Of a DNA stretch of 64,000 bases, positions 14,382 to 39,569 are shown one piece after another. The stretch spans positions 7,440,001 to 7,504,000 of the forward strand of contig NZ_JACHMP010000001.1 in assembly GCF_014204985.1 (NCBI RefSeq), in the 5' to 3' direction. The stretch is from Streptosporangium becharense (lineage in GTDB: Bacteria; Actinomycetota; Actinomycetes; Streptosporangiales; Streptosporangiaceae). Under the pieces are notes generated by a model. That model saw only the letters and a list, made by a program, of their open reading frames with translations. It did no database searches and had not been told where the DNA came from. Made by a program: the position numbers and the translations under genes. The first letter of the stretch is position 1; every line of letters starts with the position of its first letter.

Positions 14382-17300
14382 TTGACCTGGTCACTCAGCC
14401 GTGCCCTCGCGGGACGGATAGCGTTCACCGCACTCGTCGCGGTGCTCAGCCCCCTCGCCCTGCCCTCGCCCGCGACCGCCGCCCCGACTCCGACACCGTC
14501 CCCGAAGAGCACGAAGGTGTCCACCGCCTCCGGGGCCACGTTCATCGATCTCGGCCCCCTCAACAACAACGGCGGTTTCATCGGGGGAATCAACAACAAG
14601 GGCGAGGTCGTAGGGGCCGTCTCGGAGCACACCAACGGGGGCGGCAAAGCCGTCATGTACCGCGACGGGTCCGTCGTCGACATCCACGCGACCCTCGGCC
14701 CCGACATCCGCTACAGCAGGGCCTGGGACATCAACGACGACGGCGCAGTGGTCGGCACCGACGAAGACAGCCGCTCCTTCCTCTTCAAGGACGGCACGTC
14801 GACCCGCATCGAACCGAAGCAGGCCAGGGCCATCAACAACAAGGGCCAGGTCCTAGGCGGCGGCTGGATCCGCGATCCCGACGGCTCGATCCTGACTCTC
14901 CAGGGGTTCGAGGGCCAGAGCCTGGAGGCCGTCTCGCTGAACAACCTCGGGTCGGTCGTCGGCGGCGCCGAGATGAGCCGCGACAAGAAGGACAAGCAAT
15001 ACCGCGCCTTCCGCACCAGACCCGGCGAACCCATCGACGTCAAGCGGGACCGCCTGGAGTACATGGACTCCACCATAGCCTTCGACATCAACGACCACGG
15101 GGAGGTCGCCGGCTACGGGACGGACGCGGACGGCGGCTACATGCCCCTCATCTGGGACAAGGACGGCCGCCCCCAGGCGATGAACACGCCTCGCGGCGGC
15201 ATGGTGGACGCGATCAACAACGCCGGCACTGGCGTGGGAAGGCTGTATCACCAGGACGGCTGGCTCCACGCCGGCCTGTTCGAGAACGGTACCGGGGTCT
15301 ACCTGAGCACCCTGGTCCCGGAGGTGGGCTGGTTCCTGAAGAGGGCCACCGACATCAACGACCTCGGCCAGATCACCGGTGTCGGCACCCCCCCGGGGGA
15401 GGTCCTCGACCACGCCTTCCTGATCGACCTGGGGGACGCCGACCCCGTCATCTCCTCGATGACCTTCACGACACAGATCTACCCGTCCGAGGAGTGGGTC
15501 GAGGTACCGGAGGCGGAGACGATCGACGGCAACCGGGTCCGCATCTCCGTCTCGATGTTCAATCCTGGTAACCGCCCCGTGTCCACGCGGCTCCGACTGG
15601 TCGAGGAGGTGTCCGGGAAGACCCTGCCCGGCGGGGAGATCGAGGAGATTCTTCCCCCACGGGAGTCCGTCACGGAGGAGGTGATCTGGGACACGGCGGG
15701 CTTCGCCTGGCATCAGGGTGAGGTGCGATCGATACGCAAGGTGACCGCGACGCTCGTCGCCGGCGGCGTCGTCCACAGCAGCCGCACCGAATCCTACGAG
15801 GTCCGGCCCAAACCCGTGGCCCTGGTGCACGGATACAAGAGTGACGCGCAAGCGGCATGGGGCGAGTATCCGAAACTCATGCGGAGGGTGAACTCGCTAC
15901 TGGAGGGGTACGCGGTCGGCGACGGGAGAATCCCCGGCGAACTCAACACCGGCACCGAGTCGAACCCCCTCAAGCGCACCATGACCATCAGGGAGAACGC
16001 CGAGCAGGAAGCGGTCTACATCGAAGCCCTACGCAGGGGGACGGGAGCCTTCCACGTCGACGTCGTCGCCCACTCCATGGGCGGGCTGATCACCCGGCAG
16101 TACATCCAGACCGAGATGCCCGACTCGCCGGACGGCAGGCCGGTGGTGAACCGGATGCTCCAGCTGGGCACCCCCAACCGGGGATCCCCCTGCGCGGACA
16201 TGGTCATAGACCTGGCGTCACTGATGAACATCCCCGTCCCCTTCTGGCCGGCCACGCAGCAGCTGACCGTGCCGTACGTGAGTGAGGTCTTCAACTCGAA
16301 GGTCACCGACCTCAAGGGCGTCACGGCCTCCAACCTCGTCGGCGTCGGCCACGGCGTGCCCTGCTACACCCCCGGCGGGTCCGCTCCCGAGGACGGCGAC
16401 GGGGTCGTCCCGGAGTCCAGCGCTCAGTTCACCTACACCGACATCCCCTACACCCGGACCGCCCACACCGAGATGACCGCATCGCGGGAGGACTTCCACG
16501 GCTACGTCTACCCGAGGCTCGCCTCGACGCTGGTCGACACCGGCAACCCGGGCGGCGTGGAGCCGCTGCGCAAGGACGCCGCCGCACCCGCCGGTGAGAA
16601 GGCCGACGCCGGCCCCGGGACGGCCTCGACGTTCGCCACCCCCTCGGCCACGGTGGAGGCGGGCAAGACGGCGACCGTGCCGCTGGACGTCCCGCAGGGC
16701 ACGGCGTTCGGCGTCACCGGCGCGCTGCCGTCGACCGTCGGCCTGCTGCTGCGCGACCCGGCCGGGCAACCGGCCGCCTCCTACACCGCGGGCAGCGCGA
16801 GCGCCAAGCAGCCCTTCCAGGGGCTGAGCGTTCCCACCCCGACCGCGGGAGCGTGGAAGCTGGAGATCACCAACACCGGCACCGCGCCGGTCACCGCGGC
16901 CCTGGCCGCCTGGATCACCGGCAACCCGGTGACCGTGACGGCGAAGGCCCGCCAGGCGTCGGAGGACGGCACGGCGCAGGTGACGGCCACCGTCGCCGAC
17001 GACGGCGAACCGGTCACCGGCGCGACGGTGCAGGCGATCCTGATCGCCGAGGACGCCACCCGCCACGAGCTGACCCTCAAGGACGACGGGAACAGCGACG
17101 ACGGCGCCGCCGACGACGGCACGTACGGCGCCACGACCGGCCCGCTCGCCGACGGCGTGTACAGCGTCACCGTCAAGGCCGACACCACCAAGGGCACACG
17201 CACCGCACGCGACGCCGTCAGCATCCGGAAGGCCGACACCCGCGAGTTCGAACTGGAACTGTCGGCCCAGCCCGGCGGCTCGGTGACCGCGTCCCCGGCG

Positions 17301-20300
17301 CAGGAGAAGTACCGGGCCGGCACCGAGGTGACGCTCACCGCCACCGCCGAAGCGGGTCGCATCCCGCTGGGGTGGACCGTCGACGGGAAGGAGCGGCCCG
17401 GCGGGACGCTGACGCTGACCATGGACCGGGCCCACACGGTGGTGGCCCGTTTCGGCTCCTACACGGTGACCGAGATCGGCGCGCTGCCCGGCGGCGACGC
17501 CTCGCACACCGAGGCGGTCGCGCTCAACGACCGCGGCCAGGTCGCCGCCACGACGAAGGACAAGGACCAGCGGAGCCGGGCCGTGCGCTGGCAGGCCGGT
17601 GCACTCACCGACCTGGGCGGACTGACCTGCACCGACGTTCCCGGTTTCCCGTGCGGGGCGGGCGCCACGGGCATCAACGAGGCCGGTGACGTCTCCGGCT
17701 GGGCCCACGCGACGGTGGGCGGCAACAACCAGCAGCACGCCGTGGTCTTCCGCGGCAATTCCATCACGGACCTGCAACCGGCGTCCGGCACGCTGACCAA
17801 CAGCAGGGCCCGGGACCTGAACGACAACGGCCAGGTGTTCGGCTGGATGGACGGGCAGCAGGGCGTCAGCCCCTACGTGATGTGGAACCAGGGGACCGCC
17901 AAGCGGCTTCCCACCACACCGCAGTACATGGGGTACGGCTCCCCGAGCGACCGCGTCAACGGCAAGGGCACCGTCGCCGGCTCCTACGTGACGAAATGGG
18001 ACGGCCTCGGCATTCCCACGAGCTGGGAGCCGGCCGTCTATCAGAACGGTGTGACCACACCGCTGGAACTCCCGGAGTGCGAGTCCAAGAGCGGCGGCGC
18101 GCACGACGTCAACGCCACCGGCCTGGTGGTCGGCGCGGGAACGTGCAACACAGGCGAGAAGGTCACCACGCACGCCTACGCCTGGAAGGACGGCCGGCGC
18201 ACGGACCTCGGTGAGGGGGTGGCCCACGCCGTCAACGACCACGGCCTGGTGGCCGGCTTCACCGGCACGTCGGCCGCCGATGTGCCGATTCTGTGGCTGG
18301 ACGGCCGGCGCTACAAGCTGGAGGACCTGCTCCCCCGGCCGAAGTGCGACACGAAGACCGTGCCCTGCATGACGTTGACCTCACTGCTCGACGTCAACTC
18401 CTCCGGCCAGATCCTGGCGCGGGGTTTCATCCACGACCACTCCGTGGACAACGGGAACAAACGGGAGCGGTCCTTCCTGCTGACGCCGTCCACCGTGCGG
18501 GCCGACCTGGAGGTCAAGCACACGGTCTCACCGGCCGAACCCGCACCGGGCACGACCGTCACCTGGACGAGCACCGTCACCAACAAGGGGCCCGACCCCG
18601 CGACCGCCGTCCGGCTCGACATGGTCGTCCCCCAGGAGGCGGGCAAGACGGCGTGTGAGACCTCGCGAGGGCTGTGCACCGCCTTCGCGGGCGGGTTCCG
18701 CAACACGGTCAAGGTCCTGGAACCGGGCTGGAGCGCCACCGTCAAGGTGACCGCCACCATCCCGTCCGGCACCGCCGACGAGACGGAGCTCACCGCGCGG
18801 GCCGGCGTCTCCAGCCTCGCGGTCACCGACCCCGAGCACGCCGACGACTCGGCCTCCGCCACCGCGAAGGTCCGGCACGCGCTGAACCGCACCGGCATCA
18901 ACTGGGCCGACCCCATCCGCGTCGGGACGACCAGCTACCCGGTCGAGGTGACCCTGACCAACCGCGGGACCGGGGAGATGTCCCTCATCGACATCAAGAC
19001 CGAGGGCCCGTTCACGCAGACCGAGGTCTGCCCCGAGAAGCTCGGCCCGGGTGACGTGTGCAAGGTGGCGGTGGCGTTCGCCCCGACCCAGGTCGGGCCG
19101 GCGAGCGGGAAGCTGACCTTCACCACCGACGGCGCCGAGTCCCCGTATGTGGTGACCCTCGCCGGGCAGGGAGCCGAGGCGAACGCCGCACCGGTGATCG
19201 AGGTCCCGGCCGCCCCGGTGCAGGGCACGGCGGGTGAGCCGTTCACCGTGACGGTGACGTTCGCCGACGCCGACACCGCCGACACCCACACCGCGAAGGT
19301 GGAGTGGGGCGACGGCTCCCCGGTCCCCGCCGAGGTGAAGCAGGAGGCCGGCGGCGGAACCGTCACGGCGACCAGGACCTTCGACAAGCCGGTGGAAGGC
19401 ACCGTCCTGGTGGAGGTGCGCGACAGCAAGGGTGACATCGCCGCAGAGCCCGTGCGCTATGTCATCACCGACAAGACGTCCAACACCGCGCCGGTGGTGA
19501 CCGCGGGACCGGACGCCGAACTGACCGTGAACGAGACGTTCCGGCGCACCGTGTCCTTCACCGATCCCGGCTCCACGTCCTGGACGGCGACCGTCGACTA
19601 CGGCGACGGCTCCGGTCCGGCACCGGTGACCCCCGACGGCACGCAGATCGCCCTGGAGCACCGGTGGACCGCCGCCGGCACGTACCCGGTCACCGTGACC
19701 GTGCGCGACGACGGCGGCCTGCAGACCTCGGCGGTCTTCTCCGTCACCGTCCTCGCCGCGGAGACGCCGAACCAGGCTCCGCAGGTGAAGGTGTCCGGGG
19801 CCGGCGACATCGCCGAGGGTGCCGCCTGGACCGGTGAGGCGGCCTTCACCGACCCCGACTCCACCTCCTGGACGGCGACCGTCGACTACGGCGACGGCTC
19901 GGGGCCGAAGACCGTGCCCGTGAACGGGAAGGAACTGCAACTGAAGCATGTGGCCGCCGACAACGGGCAGCGCACCGTCACCGTGACGGTCACCGACGAC
20001 AAGGGCGCCACCGGCACGTCCGAGCTGAGACTGAACGTCACCAACGCGGCCCCCGAGGTGTCGCTCACCGCACCGGTGGCCGACACGGTCGTCGCCGTGG
20101 GCGTCCCGCTCACCCTGGAGGCGTCCTTCACCGACCCGGGAACCGCCGACACGCACACGGCCGTCTGGACCGTCGGCGGGCAGCGGGTGACCGGGGCGGT
20201 GACCGGTCGCGGCGGAAAGGGCACGACCGCCCTGCCGCACGTGTTCACCAAGGCGGGCCGTTACCCGATCTCGGTGACCGTCACCGACGACGACGGCGCC

Positions 20301-20783
20301 GCCACCACGGCCGACACCGCCGGCGAGGGCAAGGAGAAGGTCCACGTGCTGGTCTACGACCCGGCCGGTTCACTGGTCGGCGCCGGGGCGACGGCCTCTC
20401 CTGCGGACTCGTGCCGGTTGACCGCCGCCTGCGGCAGGGCGGGCGCGGCGGCCTTCCTCGTCACCGCCTCCTACCCGCGCAAGGCCACCACGCCCACGGG
20501 CGGGCTGAGCTACCAGGCTCCGGGATTCCGGCTGCGCGACACCTCCTACACGGTGCTCGCCGCGGCGGACGGCACGGCGATCCTGCGCGGCAAGGGCCGG
20601 GTCAACGGCACCGTGGACGTCACGTTCGAGGTCACCGCCGTCGACTCGGGCAAACCGTTCGACCGCACCGACCAGCTCCGGCTGAGGGTGTGGCGCAAGG
20701 ACGGTGAGCTGGTCTACGACAACCAGCGCACCGGCCCGCCGCCGGCCGTGACCGGCATCGTCCGCGTCAGCGGCCGCAACTGA
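14382..20783 (+). CDS. Giant secreted multidomain protein: HAF repeats, lipase-like domain, DUF11, Hydin-like and PKD domains
   Basis: TTG 14382 is preferred: GGAGAG lies at 14370-14375 and the protein then opens directly with a signal peptide ending ATAA near residue 33. The 2133-residue product has a first block of HAF-type repeats (about 45-355; repeats built on INNKGEVVG and DINDDG) and a linker. An alpha/beta hydrolase follows (about 475-713) with nucleophile Ser565 in AHSMGG, a likely aspartate in DGDGVVP near 672 and a likely His695. Next come mixed beta domains, a glycine-rich bacterial repeat (about 958-1026) and a second HAF block (1027-1366). After these are a DUF11 domain (1373-1496), a choice-of-anchor/Hydin-like domain (1503-1598), about four PKD-type domains (1603-1996; YGDGSGP) and a C-terminal beta domain. 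It probably binds and hydrolyses an extracellular lipid or ester polymer. No LPXTG or terminal membrane anchor is seen. Confidence 0.85.
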   Translation: MTWSLSRALAGRIAFTALVAVLSPLALPSPATAAPTPTPSPKSTKVSTASGATFIDLGPLNNNGGFIGGINNKGEVVGAVSEHTNGGGKAVMYRDGSVVDIHATLGPDIRYSRAWDINDDGAVVGTDEDSRSFLFKDGTSTRIEPKQARAINNKGQVLGGGWIRDPDGSILTLQGFEGQSLEAVSLNNLGSVVGGAEMSRDKKDKQYRAFRTRPGEPIDVKRDRLEYMDSTIAFDINDHGEVAGYGTDADGGYMPLIWDKDGRPQAMNTPRGGMVDAINNAGTGVGRLYHQDGWLHAGLFENGTGVYLSTLVPEVGWFLKRATDINDLGQITGVGTPPGEVLDHAFLIDLGDADPVISSMTFTTQIYPSEEWVEVPEAETIDGNRVRISVSMFNPGNRPVSTRLRLVEEVSGKTLPGGEIEEILPPRESVTEEVIWDTAGFAWHQGEVRSIRKVTATLVAGGVVHSSRTESYEVRPKPVALVHGYKSDAQAAWGEYPKLMRRVNSLLEGYAVGDGRIPGELNTGTESNPLKRTMTIRENAEQEAVYIEALRRGTGAFHVDVVAHSMGGLITRQYIQTEMPDSPDGRPVVNRMLQLGTPNRGSPCADMVIDLASLMNIPVPFWPATQQLTVPYVSEVFNSKVTDLKGVTASNLVGVGHGVPCYTPGGSAPEDGDGVVPESSAQFTYTDIPYTRTAHTEMTASREDFHGYVYPRLASTLVDTGNPGGVEPLRKDAAAPAGEKADAGPGTASTFATPSATVEAGKTATVPLDVPQGTAFGVTGALPSTVGLLLRDPAGQPAASYTAGSASAKQPFQGLSVPTPTAGAWKLEITNTGTAPVTAALAAWITGNPVTVTAKARQASEDGTAQVTATVADDGEPVTGATVQAILIAEDATRHELTLKDDGNSDDGAADDGTYGATTGPLADGVYSVTVKADTTKGTRTARDAVSIRKADTREFELELSAQPGGSVTASPAQEKYRAGTEVTLTATAEAGRIPLGWTVDGKERPGGTLTLTMDRAHTVVARFGSYTVTEIGALPGGDASHTEAVALNDRGQVAATTKDKDQRSRAVRWQAGALTDLGGLTCTDVPGFPCGAGATGINEAGDVSGWAHATVGGNNQQHAVVFRGNSITDLQPASGTLTNSRARDLNDNGQVFGWMDGQQGVSPYVMWNQGTAKRLPTTPQYMGYGSPSDRVNGKGTVAGSYVTKWDGLGIPTSWEPAVYQNGVTTPLELPECESKSGGAHDVNATGLVVGAGTCNTGEKVTTHAYAWKDGRRTDLGEGVAHAVNDHGLVAGFTGTSAADVPILWLDGRRYKLEDLLPRPKCDTKTVPCMTLTSLLDVNSSGQILARGFIHDHSVDNGNKRERSFLLTPSTVRADLEVKHTVSPAEPAPGTTVTWTSTVTNKGPDPATAVRLDMVVPQEAGKTACETSRGLCTAFAGGFRNTVKVLEPGWSATVKVTATIPSGTADETELTARAGVSSLAVTDPEHADDSASATAKVRHALNRTGINWADPIRVGTTSYPVEVTLTNRGTGEMSLIDIKTEGPFTQTEVCPEKLGPGDVCKVAVAFAPTQVGPASGKLTFTTDGAESPYVVTLAGQGAEANAAPVIEVPAAPVQGTAGEPFTVTVTFADADTADTHTAKVEWGDGSPVPAEVKQEAGGGTVTATRTFDKPVEGTVLVEVRDSKGDIAAEPVRYVITDKTSNTAPVVTAGPDAELTVNETFRRTVSFTDPGSTSWTATVDYGDGSGPAPVTPDGTQIALEHRWTAAGTYPVTVTVRDDGGLQTSAVFSVTVLAAETPNQAPQVKVSGAGDIAEGAAWTGEAAFTDPDSTSWTATVDYGDGSGPKTVPVNGKELQLKHVAADNGQRTVTVTVTDDKGATGTSELRLNVTNAAPEVSLTAPVADTVVAVGVPLTLEASFTDPGTADTHTAVWTVGGQRVTGAVTGRGGKGTTALPHVFTKAGRYPISVTVTDDDGAATTADTAGEGKEKVHVLVYDPAGSLVGAGATASPADSCRLTAACGRAGAAAFLVTASYPRKATTPTGGLSYQAPGFRLRDTSYTVLAAADGTAILRGKGRVNGTVDVTFEVTAVDSGKPFDRTDQLRLRVWRKDGELVYDNQRTGPPPAVTGIVRVSGRN

Positions 20784-21192: not shown

Positions 21193-22248
21193 ATGCCCGT
21201 GGTCGCCGTCACCCGGGAAACCGATCGGCTCCGTGAGCTGATGGACCACCGTCTCGACCGGCTTCTCGAAGGGGAGACGGACAAGCTCGCCTTCCTCGGT
21301 GCTGACCTCGACGTGCTGCGCGAGGTCCTGCTGGGGTTCGTCCGGGAGGGCGGCAAGCGGCTGCGGCCCGCGTTCGTCTACTGGGGGCACCGCGCGGCGG
21401 GCGGCTCACCGGACGACGAGGCCGTCTACGCCGCCGGTTGCGCCGTGGAGCTCATGCACGCGGGTGCGCTGATGCTCGACGACGTCATGGACGAGGCCGG
21501 CACCCGGCGCGGCCGGCGGACGGCGCACCTGACGATGGCCGCGTACCACGACGCGCGCGGATGGCGGGGGAGCGCCACCCGGTTCGGCGAGTCCACCGCG
21601 GTCCTGTTCGGCATGCTCGCCTACACCTGGGCCGACGCCGCGCTGCTGCACTGCGGGCCCCGGCTGCCTGCCGCGCTGGAGGTGTTCAACCAGCTGCGCA
21701 CCGAGGTCATCGGCGGGCAGTACCTCGACCTGGCGCACGCCGCCAGGCGTGGCGGCGACGCGGCGGAGGCTGGCCGCATCTCCACCTACAAGTCCGGCAA
21801 GTACACCGTCGAGCGTCCCCTGCACCTCGGGCACGCCGTCGCGGACGGGCCTGCCCGGCTGCGCGCCGTGCTCAGCGCCTACGCCCTCCCGCTGGGCGAG
21901 GCGTTCCAGCTCCGCGACGACGTGCTCGGCGTGTACGGCGACCCCGCCGCCACCGGCAAACCCGTCGGCGCCGACCTGCGGCAGGGCAAGCAGACCTGGT
22001 TGACCGCGGTCGCGCGGGAGCGGGCCGGCGCGTACGGTGCCGCGCTCATGGACAACGTGCGCGACGAGGACGACGTCGAGGCCGCCCGCGCGCTGATCAC
22101 CGCCACCGGGGCCCGGGAGGCCGCCGAGGAACGCATCGGCGACCTCGTCGCCCGCGCGGTGGCCGCCCTGGAGGGGGCCGGCATCCCCGGCGACGCGGCC
22201 GAGGGACTGGCGGAGCTGGCCGACCTGGCGACGAGGAGGGGCACGTGA
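21193..22248 (+). CDS. crtE: Geranylgeranyl diphosphate synthase (polyprenyl synthetase)
   Basis: The 351-residue enzyme condenses isopentenyl diphosphate with allylic diphosphates, supplying geranylgeranyl diphosphate for phytoene. The first aspartate-rich motif is LDDVMDE and the second is RDDVLGVYGD. GGKRLRP and TYKSGKYT are the other binding signatures. AGAGGAG lies directly before ATG 21193; GTG 21199 is an alternative with better spacing. Its stop overlaps the crtI start (GTGA), so it leads a tightly coupled crtE-crtI-crtB operon. Chain length cannot be proved from sequence, but the phytoene genes that follow support C20. Confidence 0.9.
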   Translation: MPVVAVTRETDRLRELMDHRLDRLLEGETDKLAFLGADLDVLREVLLGFVREGGKRLRPAFVYWGHRAAGGSPDDEAVYAAGCAVELMHAGALMLDDVMDEAGTRRGRRTAHLTMAAYHDARGWRGSATRFGESTAVLFGMLAYTWADAALLHCGPRLPAALEVFNQLRTEVIGGQYLDLAHAARRGGDAAEAGRISTYKSGKYTVERPLHLGHAVADGPARLRAVLSAYALPLGEAFQLRDDVLGVYGDPAATGKPVGADLRQGKQTWLTAVARERAGAYGAALMDNVRDEDDVEAARALITATGAREAAEERIGDLVARAVAALEGAGIPGDAAEGLAELADLATRRGT

Positions 22249-23702
22249 GCCGGGTCGTGGTGATCGGGGCCGGCCTCGGCGGGCTGGCCGCGGCGGTCAG
22301 ACTGGCCGCCGCGGGGCGGGACGTCACGGTCGTCGAGGCCGGCCGGGTGCCCGGCGGCTGCTGCGGGACCGCGTCCCTCGGCGAGTACCGCTTCGACACC
22401 GGCCCGTCGGTGCTGACCATGCCGGACGTCCTCGCCGGCGTCTTCGCCGCCGCCGGCGAGGACATGGAGACCTGGCTCCCGCTGCGGCGGCTGGACCCGT
22501 ACTACCGGTTGCGCTTCGACGATGGCTCCCACCTCGACATGGTCGCCGGGGAGGACGCCATGATCGAGCAGGTGCGCGCGCTGTGCGGCGCCGCGGAGGC
22601 CGACCGGTACCGGCGTTTCCGCGCACGCCTCGGCGAACTGTTCGAGGCCGAGTGGTCGTCCTTCATCGACCGCGACATGACCCGGCTGCGGAGCCTCGTC
22701 CAGCCGCGCGTTCTGGCCAGGCTGGCGGCCATGGGCGGCTTCCGGAGCCTGGACCGCCTCGTCGGAAGCCACCTCACCGACCACAGGCTGGTCAAGGCGC
22801 ACACCTTCCAGGCCCTGTACGTCGGCCTGGCACCGCGCCAGGCCCTCGGCATCTACGCCGTCATCGCCCACATGGACACGGTCGGCGGCGTCTTCTTCCC
22901 CCGGCACGGCGGCATGCACGCCATCCCGCAGGCCCTGGCCGCGGTGGCGGAGAAGGCCGGGGCCCAGTTCCGCTACGGTACGCGCGCCGTCAAGGTCGAG
23001 ACCGGGGCGTCGGGGGTGTCCGGGGTCCGGCTCGACACCGGCGAGCACCTGCCGGCCCGCCACGTCGTGGTCGCCTGCGACCTGCCCGGCGCCCACGCGG
23101 GGCTGCTTCCGGAAGCGGCCGGCGACTGGCGGCTGCGCCGTCCCCGGCACTCGCCCTCCTGTCTCGTCATGCACTTCGGCCTCGACCGGCGGCTCACCGG
23201 CCAGGCCCACCACACCCTGCACTTCGGCCGCGACTGGGACGCCGCCTTCGCCGCCCTCACCGCCGGCCGGCCGCAGCCCGACCCTCACCTGCTGGTCACC
23301 TACCCCGACTCCGACACCGGTGCCGCACCCGCCGGTCACGCCACCCTCACCGTGCTGGAACCGGCTCCCAACCTCCACCGCGGAGACTGGGACGGGCTCA
23401 CCGCGCGGCTGGAGGACCGGCTGTTCGGCAGGCTCGCCGACCTCGGCTACGGCGACCTGTCCGGTGCGCCGAGGCTCACCTTCGACCCGCCCGCCTGGCA
23501 GCGGCTCGGCCACTCGGCCGGCACCCCGTTCGCCCTCGACCACCGGTTCACCCAGACGGCGTGGTTCCGGCCCGCGGGCGCCGCCCGGCGGGTGCCCGGC
23601 CTGCACTTCGCCGGCATGTTCACCGCGCCCGGGGTCGGCGTGCCCCCGGTGCTCGTCTCCGGCCGGCTGGCCGCGGAACGCGTCCTGGAGGAATCCCGAT
23701 GA
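22245..23702 (+). CDS. crtI: Phytoene desaturase (CrtI family)
   Basis: The 485-residue flavoprotein starts with the dinucleotide-binding motif VIGAGLGGLAAAVRLA. It ends with the CrtI-type flavin motif (GLHFAGMFTAPGVGVPPVLVSG region). It converts phytoene to lycopene or a related desaturation product, using FAD. GTG 22245 has AGGAGG at 22234-22239 and overlaps the crtE stop. Its own stop overlaps the crtB start (ATGA). Length is normal for bacterial CrtI. A second CrtI-like gene on the opposite strand (28242-29828) probably acts later in the pathway. Confidence 0.92.
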   Translation: MSRVVVIGAGLGGLAAAVRLAAAGRDVTVVEAGRVPGGCCGTASLGEYRFDTGPSVLTMPDVLAGVFAAAGEDMETWLPLRRLDPYYRLRFDDGSHLDMVAGEDAMIEQVRALCGAAEADRYRRFRARLGELFEAEWSSFIDRDMTRLRSLVQPRVLARLAAMGGFRSLDRLVGSHLTDHRLVKAHTFQALYVGLAPRQALGIYAVIAHMDTVGGVFFPRHGGMHAIPQALAAVAEKAGAQFRYGTRAVKVETGASGVSGVRLDTGEHLPARHVVVACDLPGAHAGLLPEAAGDWRLRRPRHSPSCLVMHFGLDRRLTGQAHHTLHFGRDWDAAFAALTAGRPQPDPHLLVTYPDSDTGAAPAGHATLTVLEPAPNLHRGDWDGLTARLEDRLFGRLADLGYGDLSGAPRLTFDPPAWQRLGHSAGTPFALDHRFTQTAWFRPAGAARRVPGLHFAGMFTAPGVGVPPVLVSGRLAAERVLEESR

Positions 23703-24598
23703 CCCTGACCGCGAGTTACGAGCGCTGCCGCAGGCTCAACGCCCGCCACGGCCGCTCCTACTATCTCGCGACCCTGCTGCTGCCGGCCTGGAAACGCCCC
23801 CACGTGCACGCCCTGTACGGATTCGCCCGCTACGCCGACGAGATCGTCGACTCCTTCACCATGACCGGCGACCGGGCACGGGCGCTGGACGCCCTGTCGG
23901 CCCGGCTGGCCGCGGCGCTGGCCGGCGACGCCGTCGACGACCCGGTGCTGCCGGCGTTCGCGCAGACCGTGCGCTCGTTCGGCATCGACCACGGCGACAT
24001 CCGGGCGTTCCTCCGGTCGATGCGCGCCGACCTGACCGTCACCCGCTACGCCACCTACGACGACCTGCTCGGCTACATGGAGGGTTCGGCGGCGGTGATC
24101 GGCACCATGATGCTGCCCGTGCTGGAACCGCTGCCCGGCATGGAGGAGCGGGCCCGCGAACCCGCGCGCCAGCTCGGGCTGGCCTTCCAGCTGACGAACT
24201 TCCTGCGCGACGTCGCCGAGGACCTGGCCCGCGGCCGGATCTACCTGCCCCTGGAGGACCTGGACAAGTTCGGCGTGGACGCGGCCGACCTGGGACGCCG
24301 TGCCCCCACCCCGGCGCTGCGGGACCTGCTGGCCTTCGAGGCCGGACGGGCCCGCGACCACTACGGGCAGGCCCTGGAGGGCGTCGCCATGCTGGCCCCC
24401 TCCTCCCGGCCGTGCATCCGGGCCGCCTACGAGCTGTACGGGGGCATTCTCGACCGGATCGAGGCCGTCGGGTACGACGTGCTCCGACATCGGGCCGTCG
24501 TGCCCCGGCGGCGCAGGGCGGCCATCTTCGCCCGGCACCTGCTCGCGGCGTCCGCCGCCGACCGGGCGGAGCGCCGCGTGACCGCCGATGTCCCGTGA
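23699..24598 (+). CDS. crtB: Phytoene synthase
   Basis: The 299-residue protein is a squalene/phytoene synthase that joins two geranylgeranyl diphosphates to 15-cis-phytoene. The first aspartate-rich region is YADEIVDS, and the second is QLTNFLRDVAEDLARGRIYLP, where the family expects DxxxD. SYYLATLLLP near the N-terminus is also typical. GGAGGA at 23687-23692 precedes ATG 23699 by six bases. It is coupled to crtI by ATGA overlap and is followed after 55 bases by plsX on the same strand. Confidence 0.92.
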   Translation: MTLTASYERCRRLNARHGRSYYLATLLLPAWKRPHVHALYGFARYADEIVDSFTMTGDRARALDALSARLAAALAGDAVDDPVLPAFAQTVRSFGIDHGDIRAFLRSMRADLTVTRYATYDDLLGYMEGSAAVIGTMMLPVLEPLPGMEERAREPARQLGLAFQLTNFLRDVAEDLARGRIYLPLEDLDKFGVDAADLGRRAPTPALRDLLAFEAGRARDHYGQALEGVAMLAPSSRPCIRAAYELYGGILDRIEAVGYDVLRHRAVVPRRRRAAIFARHLLAASAADRAERRVTADVP

Positions 24599-24653
24599 TC
24601 CCGGCCCGGACGCCCGCCTCCCGCCCGCCGAACGTTTTCCTCAGGAGGACATG

Positions 24654-25625
24654 ATGCCCGAGCCGGTGGCCGTCGACGCGATGGGCGGAGACCACGGGCC
24701 GGCCGAGACGGTCGCCGGAGCGGTGCTCGCCCGGCGTGCCCGCGGCGTCCCCGTGGTCCTCGTGGGCCGGGCCGGCGCGATCCGCGCCGAGCTCGCCCGG
24801 CACGACGCGGTCGGCGAGATCGACGTGGTGCACGCCGAGCAGATCGTCCCGATGACCGAGCGGGGGGCCGGGGCCGTGTCCGCCGACCAGACCAGCGTGG
24901 CCGTCGGCTGCGACCTCGTACGGCAGGGGGCGGCGTCGGCGTTCGTGTCGGCCGGCTCGACCGGCGCGGTCGTCTCGCGCGCGATCCGCGGCCTCGGCCG
25001 CGCGGAGGGCGTGCTGCGTCCGGCCCTGGCCGTCGCGCTGCCCTCGGTCACCGGAGGGGCGACCGTGCTCGTCGACGCCGGGGCCACCGCCGACCCGACC
25101 CCCGAGATGGTCGCCCAGTTCGCGCTGCTCGGCGCGTCCTACGCCCAGCTCGTGCTGGGGGTGGCCGACCCGTCGGTCGGCCTGCTGTCGATCGGCTCGG
25201 AGCCGGGCAAGGGAAACCGGCTCACCCGCAGGACCGAGGGGCTGCTCCCCGGGCTGCCGTTCCGGTTCCACGGCAACGTCGAGGGCCACGACGTCCTCGC
25301 CGGCACCGTCGATGTGATCGTCACCGACGGGTTCACCGGGAACGTGGTGCTGAAGAACGTCGAGGGCACGGTGCGCGCGGCACTGGCGATGGTGGCGCGC
25401 GCGGGGGTGGCCGGCCCCGAGGCGCTGCGGGAGGTGGCGGCCCGCTACGACCCGGAGACGCACGGCGGGGCAGCCCTGCTCGGCCTGGACGGCACCGTCG
25501 TCGTCGCGCACGGTTCCTCCCGCGCCAGGACTGTCGCCCGCGCCTGCGAGGTGGCGCGCGACCTCGCTGAGGGCGGGGTGGTGACCAGGGTCCGCGACCA
25601 TCTCGCAGTGGAACCGGTCCGGTGA
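24654..25625 (+). CDS. plsX: Phosphate acyltransferase PlsX paralogue
   Basis: The 323-residue protein matches PlsX, which converts acyl-ACP and phosphate into acyl-phosphate at the membrane surface. Conserved blocks are DAMGGDHGP, SAGSTGA, GATADPTPEMVAQFA, FHGNVEGHDV, TDGFTGNVVLK and LLGLDGTVVVAHGSS. AGGAGG at 24643-24648 favours ATG 24654 over the adjacent ATG 24651. It is not in the usual plsX-fabHD-acpP or rpmF context. It lies at the end of a crtE-crtI-crtB operon with a plsY-like gene 880 bases on. I infer a dedicated copy that supplies acyl-phosphate for carotenoid acylation. A housekeeping role cannot be excluded without the rest of the genome. Confidence 0.88.
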   Translation: MPEPVAVDAMGGDHGPAETVAGAVLARRARGVPVVLVGRAGAIRAELARHDAVGEIDVVHAEQIVPMTERGAGAVSADQTSVAVGCDLVRQGAASAFVSAGSTGAVVSRAIRGLGRAEGVLRPALAVALPSVTGGATVLVDAGATADPTPEMVAQFALLGASYAQLVLGVADPSVGLLSIGSEPGKGNRLTRRTEGLLPGLPFRFHGNVEGHDVLAGTVDVIVTDGFTGNVVLKNVEGTVRAALAMVARAGVAGPEALREVAARYDPETHGGAALLGLDGTVVVAHGSSRARTVARACEVARDLAEGGVVTRVRDHLAVEPVR

Positions 25626-25757
25626 CCGGGCCACCGGCCGCGGCGTCCCCGGACGGCGTCCGCCGCCCGCGCGGGAACCGCGCCGCCCGGGGGACGGGCC
25701 GGGCCCCGGAGCCCGGCGCTGCGGATGGCGCGGGTGACCAGGCGGGCCCGGGCGGCA

Positions 25758-25811
25758 TGGGTGGCCACGATGGCCTGGGTGGCCACGGTGGCCTGGGTGG
25801 CCTGGGTGGCA
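25758..25811. repeat. 18-bp/9-bp minisatellite downstream of plsX
   Basis: Two 18-bp units (25758-25775 and 25776-25793, one mismatch) are followed by two 9-bp half-units built on TGGGTGGCC. They fill the gap between the convergent plsX and CrtA-like genes. Confidence 0.85.
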
Positions 25812-25825
25812 CGGCACTGGGACGG

Positions 25826-26530
25826 TCAGGCGAGCGGGTCGGCGCCGTCCCAGGTGCCCTCGCTCGCGTACGGCGTGAACCGGGCGAACAACTCCTCGGA
25901 GTACCAGCCCTCCGCGCGCGTCCTGCCGATCACCCGCCGGTGCTCCCCGTCGCGGTAGGCGAAGTCCCGCACCGAGGCGGCGTCCCGCCACAGCGAGAAC
26001 GTGGCCTGCCGGGCCAGCGGCCACTCGCCGACCCCCACCGAGGCCAGGCAGCCGTCCTGCTCCCGCAGCAGCCGGTCCACCGCGGGCACCGACCGGTAGA
26101 ACGCCACCAGGCGGGAGGGCCGGATCGACGCCCGGGTCAGCACGGCCACCGGCCCGCCGGTGCCGGCCCCGGCCCCGGGCGGCGGGCCGAAGGGCTCCAC
26201 CCCGTCCCAGCGGCCCCGCGAGGCCAGCGGAGCCAGCCGCACCTGCCACGACTCCAGCGCCTCGCGCCGCCACCGGGCCGCCACCGGCGACTCCGCCACG
26301 AAACGGTCCAGCTCCCGCTCCTCCCGCCAGACCGCCAGCAGCGCCCAGCGCCGCAGGTCGGCGCCCAGGCTCATCGACGTCCCACGGCCGGAGCCGAGCA
26401 GCCGCCAGAACAGCAATCCGGGGGTGCGCCGCAGCACCGGCCGGTCGAACGCCATGTGACGCATGGCCCCCAGATCCCCGTACCTGGTGAGGTGAAAGGA
26501 AGCGATGGTTCCCCTGCTCGTCGCGGTCAT
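25826..26530 (-). CDS. CrtA-like (spheroidene monooxygenase-type) carotenoid ketolase
   Basis: The 234-residue protein resembles the spheroidene monooxygenase family, a heme-dependent type that adds a 2-keto group at the end of acyclic carotenoids. Recognisable stretches are ASFHLTRYG at the N-terminus, [31 protein letters not shown] and [13 protein letters not shown]. The family N-terminus ASFHL requires a start upstream of the plsY start. ATG 26530 gives this and makes the two divergent genes overlap by 26 nt. It sits inside a carotenoid locus that lacks any cyclase, which agrees with an acyclic substrate. Some actinobacterial relatives are annotated only as DUF-type monooxygenases. Confidence 0.75.
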
Positions 26531-27179
26531 CGGCGGCTACCTTCTCGGGTCCGTGCCGGTCGCCGTGCTCGTCGCCCGCACGCACGGCGTCGACCCCCGC
26601 GAGGTCGGCGACCGCAACCCGGGGTTCTGGAACGTCAAGGAACGGCTCGGCCGGCGGGCCGCCGCGCCGGTCTTCGCCGGTGACACCCTCAAGGGGACGC
26701 TCGCCGCGCTGCTCGCCCTGGTGGCCGGCGGGCACACCGTCGGGTTCGGCGGGGTGAGCGGCGCGGGCGCCGTACCCGTGTACGCGGCGACGGCCGCCGC
26801 GATGATCGGGCACGCCTGGCCGGTGTTCGCGGGGTTCCGCGGCGGCCGGTCGGTGCTGACGTTCGTGGGCGGCTTCGCCGTCATCTGTCCCGCTGCCTTC
26901 CTGCTGGGCGTCGTCCTGCTGGCCGTGGCCGGCCTGGTGACGCGGTCGTTCGCGACCGGCGCGCGGGCCGGGGTGTTCGCCCTGCCCGTCTTCCAGTCGA
27001 TCTTCGCGCCGGTCGAGTACGTCGCCGGGACCGGTCTGCTGATGTGCCTCATCGGGCTCCGCTTCGGCCAGGCCGCCCGGTCGGCCCGTTCCGGCCGTGC
27101 CGCGAGTCCCGGGAGTCCCGTGAGTCCTGAGAGTCCCGCGCCTCCCGCGCCGCCGGGGCGGACGCGGCCCCGGTCGTGA
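26505..27179 (+). CDS. plsY: PlsY-like membrane acyltransferase with divergent active-site motifs
   Basis: The 224-residue membrane protein has the PlsY fold with about five hydrophobic helices. Canonical PlsY moves an acyl group from acyl-phosphate to glycerol 3-phosphate. The opening [15 protein letters not shown] is normal. The glycerol-phosphate loop, usually GSGNxGATN, reads GDRNPGFWN. The usual GGKGVAT reads GGRSVLT, and the C-terminal RHxEN block is missing. This may mark a different acceptor. AAAGGA precedes ATG 26505. The 3' end encodes a Pro/Ser-rich tail ([17 protein letters not shown]) and runs 131 bases into the convergent glycosyltransferase gene. Together with the nearby plsX it may form an acyl-transfer pair for carotenoids. 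Confidence 0.82.
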
Positions 27180-28245
27180 CCCCCGGGTAGGTGCGTCCCC
27201 GCCAGCTGCGCACCGGACGCAGCGTCGCCTCCGTCAGCCGCAGGGCGGTCAGCGGATCCAGCAGCGGGGAGAGCAGCACACCCGGCCCCGGCCGGGTGTA
27301 GCTGCCGCGCAGCGCGCTCGCCAGCAGCAGCCGCGCGGCCAGCAGGCCCAGGTCCAGCCGGGTGGGCCGGCCGGTCACCAGCCGCAGCACCGGCAGCGCC
27401 GTGGTCAGCCAGATCACCCCGAGGTCGGCGAGCTGCCGCGCGGGATCGGTGACGTCGCGCAGCGGCAGCGAACGCCCCCACTCCCGCCACACCTCGGCCG
27501 CCGAGGAATGCATGTCGATCTCCAGCAGGCCGCCGGCGTCGAGGAAGGCGACGGACCACCCCTCGGCGGCCAGGGTGCGGGCCAGCGCCACGTCGTCCGT
27601 CATGTGCCCGCGGATCCGCGCGAACCCGTCCGCCTCCAGCATCGCCGTGCGGCGGAAGGCCACGCACTGGCCGCTGGTCACCACCCGGTCCGGTGCCGGG
27701 GGAGTGGCCGGCCCGATCGGGCCGAACCGGTACACCAGCGTCGCCAGGAACGAGGCGTGCAACGCCTGCTCGGCGGGCCCGTCGCAGACGAACCTGGGCC
27801 CGGCGCTGACCAGGTCGTAGTGGTCCAGGGCCGCGGTGACGGCGCCGAGCAGGCCGGGAAGCGGGCGGGTGTCGGCGTCGAGCGTCACCACGACGTCGCC
27901 GTTCGACGCCTCGACCCCCTGCCGCAACGCCCACTGCTTGCCCACCCAGCCCGCGGGCAGCGGCGCCCCGGTCAGCACCTTCGCGCCGAGCCCGGCGGCC
28001 AGCGCGGCCGTGCCGTCGCGCGACTCGTCGTCGACGACGATCACCTCCAGGACGGCCGGGTCGGTCAGCACCGCCCGCAGGCAGGGGCCCAACCGGCTCT
28101 CCTCGTCCCGGGCCGGGATCACCACCGAGATCCGCGCGGGCACACCGGCGACCGGGGTCAGCGCGGGCAGCCGGTCGCGTCCCCGCGCCAGCCGCACCCC
28201 GGCGACGAGCGCCGCGGCGGCCTGCACCGCGGTCAACGCCTTCAC
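27049..28245 (-). CDS. Family 2 glycosyltransferase for carotenoid modification
   Basis: The 398-residue enzyme has a GT-A nucleotide-sugar fold (VVIPARDEE, VVDDESRDGT, the metal motif TLDADT and the base region HMTDDVALARTLAAEGW) with flanking membrane segments. It resembles the CrtQ/CruC-like enzymes that attach a sugar to a hydroxylated or carboxylated carotenoid. GTG 28245 is preceded by a run of seven G and overlaps the desaturase stop (GTGA). The C-terminal 30 residues are repeats of DSRDS and run antisense to the PlsY tail, giving a 131-bp convergent overlap. The donor sugar is not predictable. Confidence 0.85.
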   Translation of the reverse strand: MKALTAVQAAAALVAGVRLARGRDRLPALTPVAGVPARISVVIPARDEESRLGPCLRAVLTDPAVLEVIVVDDESRDGTAALAAGLGAKVLTGAPLPAGWVGKQWALRQGVEASNGDVVVTLDADTRPLPGLLGAVTAALDHYDLVSAGPRFVCDGPAEQALHASFLATLVYRFGPIGPATPPAPDRVVTSGQCVAFRRTAMLEADGFARIRGHMTDDVALARTLAAEGWSVAFLDAGGLLEIDMHSSAAEVWREWGRSLPLRDVTDPARQLADLGVIWLTTALPVLRLVTGRPTRLDLGLLAARLLLASALRGSYTRPGPGVLLSPLLDPLTALRLTEATLRPVRSWRGRTYPGVTTGAASAPAAREARDSQDSRDSRDSRHGRNGPTGRPGRSGAR

Positions 28246-29828
28246 CGGTCCCCCCCGGTGACCCGCGGCATCCCCGGTGCTCCCGACGTCCCAGGTGTCC
28301 CCAGCCTCTCTGATGTTCCCGGCGTCTCCGTACCGCCCCTCCCGGCGGGCGGCGTCACGTCCGGCGCGGGCCGTCCGGCGCCGGTCCGGCCCGCGCGACC
28401 GGTGGGGAAGTCCTCCCGCACGAGCGAGGCGACGATCCGCCCGCCCATCGCGACCAGCGGCAACCCGCCGCCGGGGTGCGCCGAGCCGCCCACCAGGTAC
28501 AGGCCGCGCCGGGGCCCGCGGTTGCCGGGACGGCGGAAGGGGGCGAGCGGGCCGGAGTAGGCGCCGCCGTAGATCGAGCCGCCCCACGCGCCGTACCGGT
28601 CGCGCAGGTCCGCCGGGGTGAACAGGTCGACGAACCGCAGCCGCCCCGACAGGTCGTGGCCCCGCGAGGCCAGCCGTTCGAGCACCAGGTCCCGGTACGC
28701 CTCCGGCGGCATCGGCCACCGGGCGGGGTCCCGCGCCGGGACGTTCACCAGCATGACCTGGTTCTCCATGCCCGGCGGGGCCTGCGACGGGTCGTCCACC
28801 GCCGAGCAGCCGATGTAGACGGTCGGGTCCTCCGGCGGCCTGCGCCGCTCGAAGATGTCGGCGAACTCCCGCCCGTAGTCGGCGGAGAAGACGATCGAAT
28901 GGTGCGCCGGCCGCGCGGAGCGGCCCTCGACCCCGGCGAGCAGCAGCAGCACCGAGGACGACGTGCCCAGCCGGGCGATGCGGCGCAACCGCCGCCGGTC
29001 GGGCAGCAGGGTGCCGTACAACGCCGCCGCGTCGGTGTTGGCGATCACGACGTCGGCGCGCTCGCGTTCCCCGGAGGCCAGCCGCACCCCGCGGACCCGT
29101 TCGCCGTCGGCCAGCACCTCCGCCACGTCGGCGTTCAGACGCACCTCCACCCCGGCCTTCTCCAGCGCCAGGGCGAGGGCGTCGGCGATGCGGGGCAGCC
29201 CGCCGGGCACGTACCAGCCGCCTTCGCCGTGCTCGATCGCGGGGACGCACCCCAGCGCGGCCGGCGCCCGGTACGGGCTCGAACCCGCGTAGGTGGCGTA
29301 GCGGCCGACGTACTGGCGCAGGCGCGGGTCGGTGAAGAACCGGCGGGCCAGCCCGTCGAGGGTGCGGCCCGGCGCCACCGCCAGCAGGTCCGACAGGCGG
29401 GTGTCCGCGCGCGGGGCGGTCAGCGGCCCGGAGAAGAACGTGCGGCGCGACGCCTCGAAGCAGGTGCGGGCCCAGTCGTGGAAGGCCAGCCAGTTGCGGC
29501 CCTCCCCGGGGGAGAGCCGGTCGACCTCCGCGGCCGTCGCCGCGGGATCGCGGTACGCGGTCAGCTCCGAGCCGTCGGCGAAGCGGTAACGGCACAGCTC
29601 GGCGAGCTCCACCAGGTCCAGGTCGAGCCCCAGCTCGGTGAACAGGCGCGGCAGGGTCAGCAGGGACGGGCCCAGGGAGAAGGTGAAACCGTCCCTGTGG
29701 TGCTCGGCGAGCTTGCCCCCCAGGCGGGGGAGCCGCTCGTACAGCCGGACCCGGTATCCCCGCTCGGCGAGCAGCAGCGCGGAGACCATGCCTCCGACGC
29801 CACCGCCGACCACGATCACTTCCGCCAT
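28242..29828 (-). CDS. CrtI-like carotenoid desaturase/oxidase (CrtD-type candidate)
   Basis: The 528-residue FAD-dependent protein begins VIVVGGGVGGMVSALLLAERG and carries LGGKLAEHHRDGFTFSLGPSLL. It ends with YLVGGSAHPGGGLPLVAMGG, the CrtI-family flavin site. It differs clearly from the crtI at 22245 and shares its operon with cruF. That pattern fits a 3,4-desaturase (CrtD) acting on 1-hydroxy carotenoids. A diapolycopene-oxidase-like role is an alternative. The C-terminal tail (from about residue 480) is low-complexity, with Gly-Thr-Pro repeats. ATG 29828 lies 13 bases inside the end of cruF, and its stop overlaps the glycosyltransferase start. Confidence 0.85.
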   Translation of the reverse strand: MAEVIVVGGGVGGMVSALLLAERGYRVRLYERLPRLGGKLAEHHRDGFTFSLGPSLLTLPRLFTELGLDLDLVELAELCRYRFADGSELTAYRDPAATAAEVDRLSPGEGRNWLAFHDWARTCFEASRRTFFSGPLTAPRADTRLSDLLAVAPGRTLDGLARRFFTDPRLRQYVGRYATYAGSSPYRAPAALGCVPAIEHGEGGWYVPGGLPRIADALALALEKAGVEVRLNADVAEVLADGERVRGVRLASGERERADVVIANTDAAALYGTLLPDRRRLRRIARLGTSSSVLLLLAGVEGRSARPAHHSIVFSADYGREFADIFERRRPPEDPTVYIGCSAVDDPSQAPPGMENQVMLVNVPARDPARWPMPPEAYRDLVLERLASRGHDLSGRLRFVDLFTPADLRDRYGAWGGSIYGGAYSGPLAPFRRPGNRGPRRGLYLVGGSAHPGGGLPLVAMGGRIVASLVREDFPTGRAGRTGAGRPAPDVTPPAGRGGTETPGTSERLGTPGTSGAPGMPRVTGGDR

Positions 29829-30637
29829 CCACGCCTCCAGGCGAGCAGTACGAACAGGCCCATGCAGAGTCCCCCGGCGGTGGCGACCAGCGGGTCCGGC
29901 GGGTCGAACACCGCCGCGAAGCCGACGGTCTCCATGACCGCCATCACCGTGTAGATCACGACCAGCCCGGTGCCGCGCGCCGCCGGGTCGGCCACGATCC
30001 GCTCGATGAGCACCATGACCAGCGCGGAGACGACGATCCAGCCGACGAAGTTGCTGACCGGGACACCCCGGTAGGGGCCGGGGTCGTGCCAGACCCACAG
30101 CCCCAGGCGGAGCATCTGTGGGTCGAGGAACAGGTCCCACGCGGTCAGCGCCAGCGCACCCAGCACGACCCGGGCCGGCCGGTTGCGCGGCGCCGCCGCG
30201 GCCGCCGCGGCGTGCGCCGCCAGGCCCATGCCACCCCAGGCGAGGGCGACGATCACCGGCACCCCGCTGAGCTGCGGCTGGAGCACGCCGGTGTAGTGGT
30301 AGTCGCCGAACGGCAGGCCCGTCCTGATCCCGATCCACTCGGCGGCGTATCCGGCGGCGACCGCGGCGGCCAGCGCCGCCGCGGCCCGTGCCGGTCCGTG
30401 GACCGACGCGGCGAAGGACAGAGCACTGCCGGCGAGCAGCACGACGACCACGCCGGTCAACACGATCGGCCGTGGTTGCAGCCCGGAGGCGACCTGCGCG
30501 ACGACCATGGCCGCCAGCAGCGCCACGCCGAGCGCGCGCGCCGCCCGGGGGAACGGCTCCGCCGCCCCGGCCCTCCCCGGTCCGCCGGCCGGCGGACGCT
30601 CCCGCGTCGCGCCGTGCCCCCGGCGTCCGCTGTTCAT
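29816..30637 (-). CDS. cruF: Carotenoid 1',2'-hydratase CruF
   Basis: The 273-residue membrane protein has about seven hydrophobic helices and the CruF signatures PFGDYHYTGVLQPQLSGVP and AWDLFLDPQM. CruF adds water to the terminal double bond of psi end groups of acyclic or monocyclic carotenoids, giving tertiary 1-hydroxy groups. It is the first gene of the minus-strand operon cruF-desaturase-glycosyltransferase. ATG 30637 is used; GTG 30655 is also open and neither has a strong ribosome-binding site. The product would supply the hydroxyl to which the glycosyltransferase attaches sugar. Confidence 0.85.
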   Translation of the reverse strand: MNSGRRGHGATRERPPAGGPGRAGAAEPFPRAARALGVALLAAMVVAQVASGLQPRPIVLTGVVVVLLAGSALSFAASVHGPARAAAALAAAVAAGYAAEWIGIRTGLPFGDYHYTGVLQPQLSGVPVIVALAWGGMGLAAHAAAAAAAPRNRPARVVLGALALTAWDLFLDPQMLRLGLWVWHDPGPYRGVPVSNFVGWIVVSALVMVLIERIVADPAARGTGLVVIYTVMAVMETVGFAAVFDPPDPLVATAGGLCMGLFVLLAWRRGWRK

Positions 30638-30930
30638 CTGGTTGCTGTGCCCCACGGAAGGTCATTCGAGTGGCCGGGCACGGTCAGATTCACTTTGTCG
30701 TCGTGATTCGCCGTAGCAGCGGTTTTTCCCGCGTCCGCCCGTCTGTCCGTTCGCCGGGTCGCCCGTCCGCCGTCTGTCCGACCGCCGCCTGTCCGCCCGT
30801 CCGCCGGGTCGCTCAGCCGGTCGCCCGGTGGGCGGCAACCGCTCTGCAAGCGTGGTGCATGCGGGGCGTCCTACAAACCTCTCACCACCCCGGCCCCCGG
30901 CTGCCGCACCGGCCGAAAGGACGATCCCGT
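30638..30930. repeat. Divergent intergenic region with degenerate GTCCGCC repeats
   Basis: The region separates cruF (minus) from a plus-strand membrane protein gene. Bases 30738-30835 are degenerate iterations of CCGTCTGTCCG and GTCCGCCGGGTCG. Bases 30685-30720 are relatively AT-rich and may hold the cruF promoter. No gene is recognised. Confidence 0.5.
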
Positions 30931-39228: not shown

Positions 39229-39569
39229 CGCGGAGGTTCCCTTCACTGGGGGGTGGTGGGCTGCCGGGCGTGGGGGACCTGGCGGGGGTGCGGCAGCCGT
39301 CCGGTGGACGGCCGGGTACGGGGCGGCCGGAGCGCGACTCCCGGCCACGGCCAGTGGAACAAGGTTGTCTCCGCAGCCTGGAGTGCCTGGTCCGGGTGGC
39401 ACTCACCCGGCTCGCGGTCTCGGCGCGACGGCGAGCCGGGTGACCGGACCTGACGGCTTCAGGTCGCGGTGAGAAGCGGTGGCGGCCGTGCGACGGACGG
39501 CCGCCACCCGGATCCCTGCGATCTCCTCGCCGGTCTCATGCCCGAGGGGCCGGGTCCGCCGTGACCGGA

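Follow-up and report, generated by a model that had tools for sequence, protein, structure and literature searches.

A 64,000-nucleotide window of the 7.8-Mb genome of the actinobacterium Streptosporangium becharense (C1:7440001-7504000) contains a nine-gene acyclic-carotenoid cluster, in which the forward-strand genes for geranylgeranyl diphosphate synthase (GGPPS), CrtI, CrtB and PlsX are followed by crtA (reverse), plsY (forward) and the genes for CruG, CrtD and CruF (reverse). This PlsY, an altered member of the glycerol-3-phosphate acyltransferase family, is probably an acyl-phosphate-dependent O-acyltransferase that esterifies a carotenoid glycoside. A previous sequence-only reading of the window had placed plsX and plsY inside a carotenoid cluster, which the coordinates bear out with crtA, cruG, crtD and cruF alongside, and had suggested that the pair acylates the carotenoid with acyl-phosphate instead of acylating glycerol 3-phosphate. 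The linkage of the genes, the changed phosphate clamp of PlsY, the coexistence of canonical PlsY in other genomes and the joint absence of PlsX with PlsY all point to that function. The gene content, the conserved linkage, the fixed residue changes, the separation of clades and the nested presence of the genes are direct observations.

The product of 26505-27179 belongs to the family by its match to the Pfam model G3P_acyltransf (PF02660, cut-off 24.1 bits), and it falls under the cut-off of the NCBIfam equivalog model for PlsY, TIGR00023 (79.5 against 137.2 bits, with no canonical PlsY scored as a control). A remote member of the same clade, L159, was also below this cut-off with 87.7 bits. 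The only PDB sequence matched was that of Aquifex PlsY; regarding the seven-helix fold, the profile match to 5xj5 extended over chain residues 4-170 and was accompanied by hydropathy peaks. Motifs 1 and 2 proved to be altered just as the sequence-only reading had it, and RHxEN is indeed absent, the C-terminal RHxxN position being occupied by RFGQA according to MAFFT, in agreement with the ungapped continuation of the profile alignment, which ends just before it.

In Aquifex PlsY, roles have been assigned to most of these positions. According to the accessible text of PMC5700162, Ser35, Arg45, Lys104 and Asn180 form the phosphate clamp for glycerol 3-phosphate, whose 2-OH is held by Ser142 and His177. 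Acyl-phosphate is bound by His92, Thr41 and the backbone of residues 104-107, its carbonyl by the Thr41 hydroxyl. Asn37 is the proposed oxyanion helper of a reaction proposed to be substrate-assisted. The activities left in the mutants reported there were 4.8% (S35A), 1.1% (R45A), 4.6% (N180A), 0.3% (H177F), 4.75% (T41A) and 25% (K104R alone).

The corresponding residues (numbering of the window PlsY in brackets) were counted in 96 cluster PlsYs, comprising 95 fetched loci and the window, which were found by Pfam and hence not chosen by a motif pattern. Ser35 was replaced by Asp (D36), Thr41 by Trp (W42), Lys104 by Arg (R115), Ala107 by Leu (L118) and His177 by Phe (F187) in all 96, and Asn180 by Ala (A190) in 95 with a gap in the remaining one. 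The Arg45 position (E46) was occupied by Glu in 79, Gln in 7, Gly in 4, Asp in 3 and Arg in 3. Asn37 (N38), His92 (H103) and Gly102-Gly103 (G113, G114) were kept without exception. Canonical PlsYs, 17 from a class sample and one from the order sample, chosen by a motif filter (GG[KRA] etc.), displayed Ser, Thr, Arg, Lys, Ala, His and Asn at the seven positions in 18 of 18 cases. The motif changes are a signature of the clade and not a peculiarity of a single sequence. Because Asp, Trp, Arg and Phe stand at Ser35, Thr41, Lys104 and His177 throughout, the published glycerol-3-phosphate clamp is replaced, and a PF02660 protein that fails both the clamp and the equivalog tests is not to be named a glycerol-3-phosphate acyltransferase. 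Asp, Trp and usually Glu in place of the clamp would suit an uncharged acceptor such as a sugar more than an anionic one.

The loss of several active-site side chains, Thr41 included, would also fit a PlsY that is no longer an enzyme and serves the carotenoid pathway as a membrane scaffold or a binding protein. Such a role is quite improbable, considering that Asn37, His92 and Gly102-Gly103 are retained in every cluster PlsY and that a PlsX copy tied to PlsY would be needless for a scaffold. A pseudogene or decaying copy was rejected on the residue conservation and on dN/dS values below 1 in nine of nine pairs for each of the two genes (0.12-0.68 for PlsY and 0.19-0.71 for PlsX, rough values at low divergence).

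Proposed acylation of the pigment is consistent with the linkage of the genes across the order. PlsY was present in 99 of 297 order-sample genomes, lay in a carotenoid cluster in 96 of these, and accompanied the cluster CrtA in 96 of the 102 genomes that bear it. From this sample 104 loci were fetched, namely the PlsY regions of 98 other genomes and six CrtA-bearing genomes lacking PlsY. PlsX, PlsY, CruG and CrtA occurred together in 86 of them; nine had PlsY, CruG and CrtA without PlsX, one of which (L078) sits on a 3.1-kb contig; five had CruG and CrtA without PlsY and PlsX; one had CrtA without any of the other three; and L052, L108 and L109 were not such clusters. In every one of the 95 fetched PlsY clusters, PlsY and CrtA were encoded on opposite strands. 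As to a substitution of PlsY by a different acyltransferase in the six PlsY-less clusters, their gene maps were compact. A cluster PlsX was found in 86 of 95 PlsY clusters versus none of the six without PlsY (Fisher p 2.7e-6 for 85/8/0/6 loci of at least 7 kb, uncorrected for shared ancestry). An obligatory PlsX in the cluster was rejected, as eight long loci carry PlsY without it; one PlsX was located elsewhere in all eight of these genomes.

Both genes also form lineages of their own. In the PlsY tree, 51 carotenoid PlsYs split from 34 canonical and four other PlsYs with support of 100/99, the program warning that long branches meet at this split, and cluster and other PlsXs were separate clades with 100/100. 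Between the two PlsX groups, 101 positions were fixed alike (at 90% or more) and 20 were fixed differently. When a 394-genome class sample was scanned with a clade profile, scoring the best eight candidates per genome, the 13 family genomes matched scored 324-358 bits, and none of the 25 other matching genomes exceeded 45 bits. That ordinary housekeeping plsX and plsY stand beside carotenoid genes by chance is hardly credible: nothing beyond the family names speaks for it, and it was rejected by the 96/99 linkage in PlsY-bearing order genomes together with the separate clades of both genes.

The sequence-only reading had left the acceptor as a sugar or a hydroxyl, and of these the sugar is made more likely by the link with CruG. 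With the same donor chemistry, PlsY could instead esterify a carotenoid hydroxyl at C-2 or C-1, giving an ester without a sugar; CrtA, the expected maker of the C-2 oxygen function, adjoins PlsY, and their 5' ends overlap in most measured loci. This acceptor is nevertheless unlikely, as CruG was present in 95 of 95 fetched PlsY clusters, the sole CruG-less cluster lacked PlsY, and the set of Asp, Trp, Glu and Arg would resemble a sugar site. At locus L273 (G094), CruF, CrtD, CrtA, GGPPS, CrtI and CrtB were found and CruG, PlsY and PlsX were not; its pigment is perhaps unglycosylated.

The genome as a whole encodes a single PF02660 protein, which is the cluster PlsY, and two PF02504 proteins, the cluster copy (275 bits) and a copy at C1:4347135 (313 bits). 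The earlier description of plsX and plsY as paralogues is right for PlsX and not for PlsY, and the finding named beforehand as contrary to a carotenoid role, that these are the only such genes of the genome, applies to plsY and not to plsX. A sole plsY is no refutation here, because 198 of the 297 order genomes have no PF02660 match and seven PF01553 acyltransferase matches above the Pfam cut-off are present in this genome. The 198 genomes were scored for presence or absence only, except for the six CrtA-bearing ones, G087 and G190. Since they make up two thirds of the sample, the lineage is not reliant on PlsY for phospholipids; mycobacteria have been described without a PlsX/PlsY system, according to the accessible part of PMC10593935. 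All 25 family members in a sample of relatives had a PlsX, though some, such as G087, lack a PF02660 match. The plsX at C1:4347135 adjoins an arginyl-tRNA-synthetase-like frame, named by eye.

PF02660 membership, its position as the sole PlsY of the genome and the presence of PlsX would also agree with a PlsY that still acylates glycerol 3-phosphate, or a near polar phosphate, and provides special lipids for pigment membranes. This option is likewise very doubtful. Ser35, Lys104 and His177 are replaced in all 96 cluster PlsYs, Asn180 in 95 and Arg45 in 93, and alanine at clamp positions costs more than 90% of activity in the available text of PMC5700162, where K104R alone retains a quarter. 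Two thirds of the order genomes have no PlsY, and a canonical PlsY coexists with the altered one in 16 of 27 listed genomes from outside the family.

These outside genomes were obtained by scanning GTDB species genomes for DNA encoding GDxNPG[FY]WN, which gave at least 118 stretches, 80 loci of which were taken. Among the matches listed, PlsY was accompanied by CrtA and/or CruG in 77 of the 80 loci, with no match to the cluster queries in L169, L186 and L205; Streptosporangium, Nonomuraea, Actinomadura, Microbispora and relatives were included. At least 27 loci lay outside Streptosporangiaceae, in genomes labelled Acidimicrobiia, Ilumatobacter or Thermoleophilia and in other metagenome-assembled genomes (MAGs), and the PlsYs of the 27 listed were 37-56% identical to the window PlsY. 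Two or more PF02660 matches were detected in 20 of these 27 genomes, and the canonical type (GSxNPGxxN, GGKGVA and a C-terminal H..N) was confirmed in the 16 mentioned. The PlsX query had no match in the 27 loci, which extend up to 8 kb, and a PlsX match occurred in 23 of the 27 genomes, one of them fragmentary, many of the genomes being MAGs and maybe incomplete. Among the matches listed, all 26 remote carotenoid PlsYs have Asp, Trp, Arg and Leu, whereas Phe occupies position 177 in 20 of them and Ala position 180 in 25; the Asp and Trp counts are circular because the search pattern selected these residues. A novel branch within the PlsY superfamily, spanning Streptosporangiaceae and Acidimicrobiia-type actinobacteria, seems somewhat favoured, in which acyl-phosphate would acylate a membrane pigment glycoside and most Streptosporangiaceae clusters would bring their own PlsX. 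A third PlsY-like type, with G[ST]xNPGA[NA]N and GGKGVATS, was observed in L314, L315, L316 and L327, whose genomes also hold the carotenoid PlsY; it occupies a tree branch of its own (four rows, 100/97) and hints at further acceptors in some outside genomes.

Several points weigh against a carotenoid-glycoside acyltransferase. Trp at Thr41 in all cluster PlsYs means that the acyl-phosphate donor site is not wholly kept, E46 is not fixed, three of the 96 having Arg at this position, and Lys104→Arg alone is mild, with Ser35→Asp not among the mutants in the accessible text of PMC5700162. The motif filter for canonical PlsYs left out two non-cluster PlsYs, L108 (G144) and L109 (G280), and in 74 pattern-found sequences the motif 1 residues named in the pattern were preset by it. 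Acylation would not be obligatory, since five of the 102 CrtA-bearing order genomes carry CruG without PlsY, and the link between CruG and a sugar acceptor rests on gene order and the single CruG-less cluster. In G190 (L356), from the same genus, a cluster-type PlsX with 81% identity is intact in the absence of PlsY and CrtA. This PlsX and a 32-residue CrtD remnant are all that the cluster queries find in G190, and the gene is apparently a relic of a deleted carotenoid cluster.

For the pigment itself, the accessible text of PMC11855829 describes the psi end of the myxol pathway as formed by 1,2-hydration by CruF, 3,4-desaturation by CrtD and 2-hydroxylation by CrtA-OH. CruG is named a 2'-O-glycosyltransferase in NCBIfam. 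The cluster CrtA, CruG, CrtD and CruF score below their equivalog cut-offs, so their exact reactions are assigned provisionally. The genome yielded no convincing match to a lycopene cyclase (29.8 bits at best for PF05834, none for PF18916), for which reason the pigment is probably acyclic and a monocyclic, myxol-like product is not favoured. The known-type acyltransferase CrtO (PF18927) had no match in this genome, nor in any control genome. The simplest product would be an acyclic, oscillol-like carotenoid bearing an acylated sugar.

From these sequence comparisons we infer the enzyme activities, the acceptor, the order of steps and the product as follows. GGPPS, CrtB and CrtI would furnish an acyclic C40 carotenoid, which would then undergo C-1,2 hydration by CruF, C-3,4 desaturation by CrtD, C-2 oxidation by CrtA and sugar attachment by CruG. 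The cluster PlsX would convert acyl-ACP to acyl-phosphate, and the altered membrane PlsY would still bind this donor and retain the substrate-assisted chemistry of its family. With the phosphate clamp turned into a sugar-type site of Asp, Trp, usually Glu, and Arg, a hydroxyl of the carotenoid-bound sugar would replace the 1-OH of glycerol 3-phosphate as the acceptor, and the product would be a fatty-acid ester of the carotenoid glycoside.

Table 1. Genes of the carotenoid cluster and PlsY motif regions, in window coordinates (residue changes in Aquifex numbering).
Feature	Position	Strand	Evidence
Polyprenyl (geranylgeranyl) diphosphate synthase	21193..22248	+	PF00348 158 bits; start codon picked by eye
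crtI, phytoene desaturase	22245..23702	+	TIGR02734 418 bits
crtB, phytoene synthase	23699..24598	+	PF00494 255 bits
plsX, cluster copy; acyl-ACP:phosphate acyltransferase, predicted acyl-phosphate supply	24651..25625	+	TIGR00182 267 bits; own clade 100/100
crtA, spheroidene-monooxygenase-like putative carotenoid C-2 oxygenase (hydroxylase or ketolase)	25826..26530	-	NF045923 192 bits, below cut-off 300
plsY-like (224 aa), altered PlsY; proposed acyl-phosphate:carotenoid-glycoside O-acyltransferase	26505..27179	+	PF02660 112 bits; below TIGR00023 cut-off; signature residues 96/96
PlsY motif 1 region, residues 35-46	26607..26642	+	S35→D, T41→W, R45→E; N37 kept
PlsY motif 2 region GGRSVLT, residues 113-119	26841..26861	+	K104→R, G105→S, A107→L; GG kept
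PlsY motif 3 position RFGQA, residues 186-190, replacing RHxxN	27060..27074	+	H177→F, N180→A; MAFFT alignments
cruG-like carotenoid O-glycosyltransferase (GT2)	27049..28245	-	NF045692 CruG 240 bits, below cut-off 600; start codon picked by eye
crtD-like 1-hydroxycarotenoid 3,4-desaturase	28242..29828	-	NF045637 286 bits, below cut-off 580; TIGR02734 crtI_fam 284.5 bits, above cut-off
cruF-like carotenoid 1,2-hydratase	29816..30655	-	PF04240 145 bits; TIGR03460 106 bits, below cut-off 154.7

The locations of the genes are collected in Table 1. The frame 24588-25625, which holds plsX, scored 275 bits with Pfam FA_synthesis and exceeded the TIGR00182 cut-off of 243.4 bits. The antisense crtA separates plsX from plsY and overlaps the 5' end of the latter by 26 bp, and the same projected overlap of 26 bp was observed in 63 of 91 measurable loci. 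The genes crtI, crtB and plsX thereby share one strand with plsY around crtA, an arrangement that resembles a noncontiguous operon; a scan for promoters and terminators gave nothing above chance. Directly before the cluster lies a repeat-rich open reading frame (ORF) of 2173 residues (14262-20783, forward) with PKD-like stretches and a lipase-like region, and a 1462-residue ORF (35014-39402, reverse) appears to join domains of the sugar dehydrogenase, PKD, ricin and ThuA types in one protein, all assigned by eye.

To our knowledge, PlsY is known for one acceptor, glycerol 3-phosphate. A connection of PlsX/PlsY to carotenoid biosynthesis was not found in a literature search among the titles and beginnings of abstracts listed, nor did the search return a paper joining PlsY with a carotenoid glucoside acyltransferase or phytoene synthase with the glycerol-3-phosphate acyltransferase PlsY. 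If the proposal is true, acyl-phosphate would serve as a donor in specialised metabolism too, through a clade that is linked to a glycosyltransferase and has a remodelled acceptor site, and the cluster PlsY would be a candidate for the enzyme that acylates carotenoid glycosides in actinobacteria. The results also suggest that the automatic annotation "glycerol-3-phosphate acyltransferase" is wrong for cluster plsY genes. Moreover, the natural residue swaps may help the study of acceptor choice in an enzyme that the available text of PMC5700162 presents as a proposed antibacterial target.

Compared with Aquifex PlsY (PF02660; PDB 5XJ5-5XJ9), the cluster protein is of the same family and keeps Asn37, His92 and both glycines (GG) of motif 2, whereas Ser35, Arg45, Lys104, His177, Asn180 and Thr41 are replaced and the TIGR00023 cut-off is missed. 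The cluster PlsX is full-length and above the equivalog cut-off of its family (PF02504, TIGR00182), and differs from other PlsX copies as a separate clade with 20 fixed differences. The end-group enzymes are those of the myxol-type pathway, with CruF, CrtD and CrtA-OH as described in the accessible text of PMC11855829 and CruG as named by NCBIfam; to these the cluster adds PlsX and PlsY on a probably acyclic pigment without a convincing lycopene cyclase. The closest precedent for the proposed reaction is the sugar acylation by CruD and related carotenoid-glycoside acyltransferases of Salinibacter and Thermomicrobium; in the accessible part of PMC2615216, acylated carotenoid glycosides of Thermomicrobium are proposed by analogy with the salinixanthin of Salinibacter, through an acyltransferase domain or CruD. 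Among the nine cluster genes, no acyltransferase family was detected beyond PF02504, PF02660 and their NCBIfam counterparts, with no CruD model included in the search. The candidate of this cluster is instead a PlsY-family protein, with acyl-phosphate as its proposed donor.

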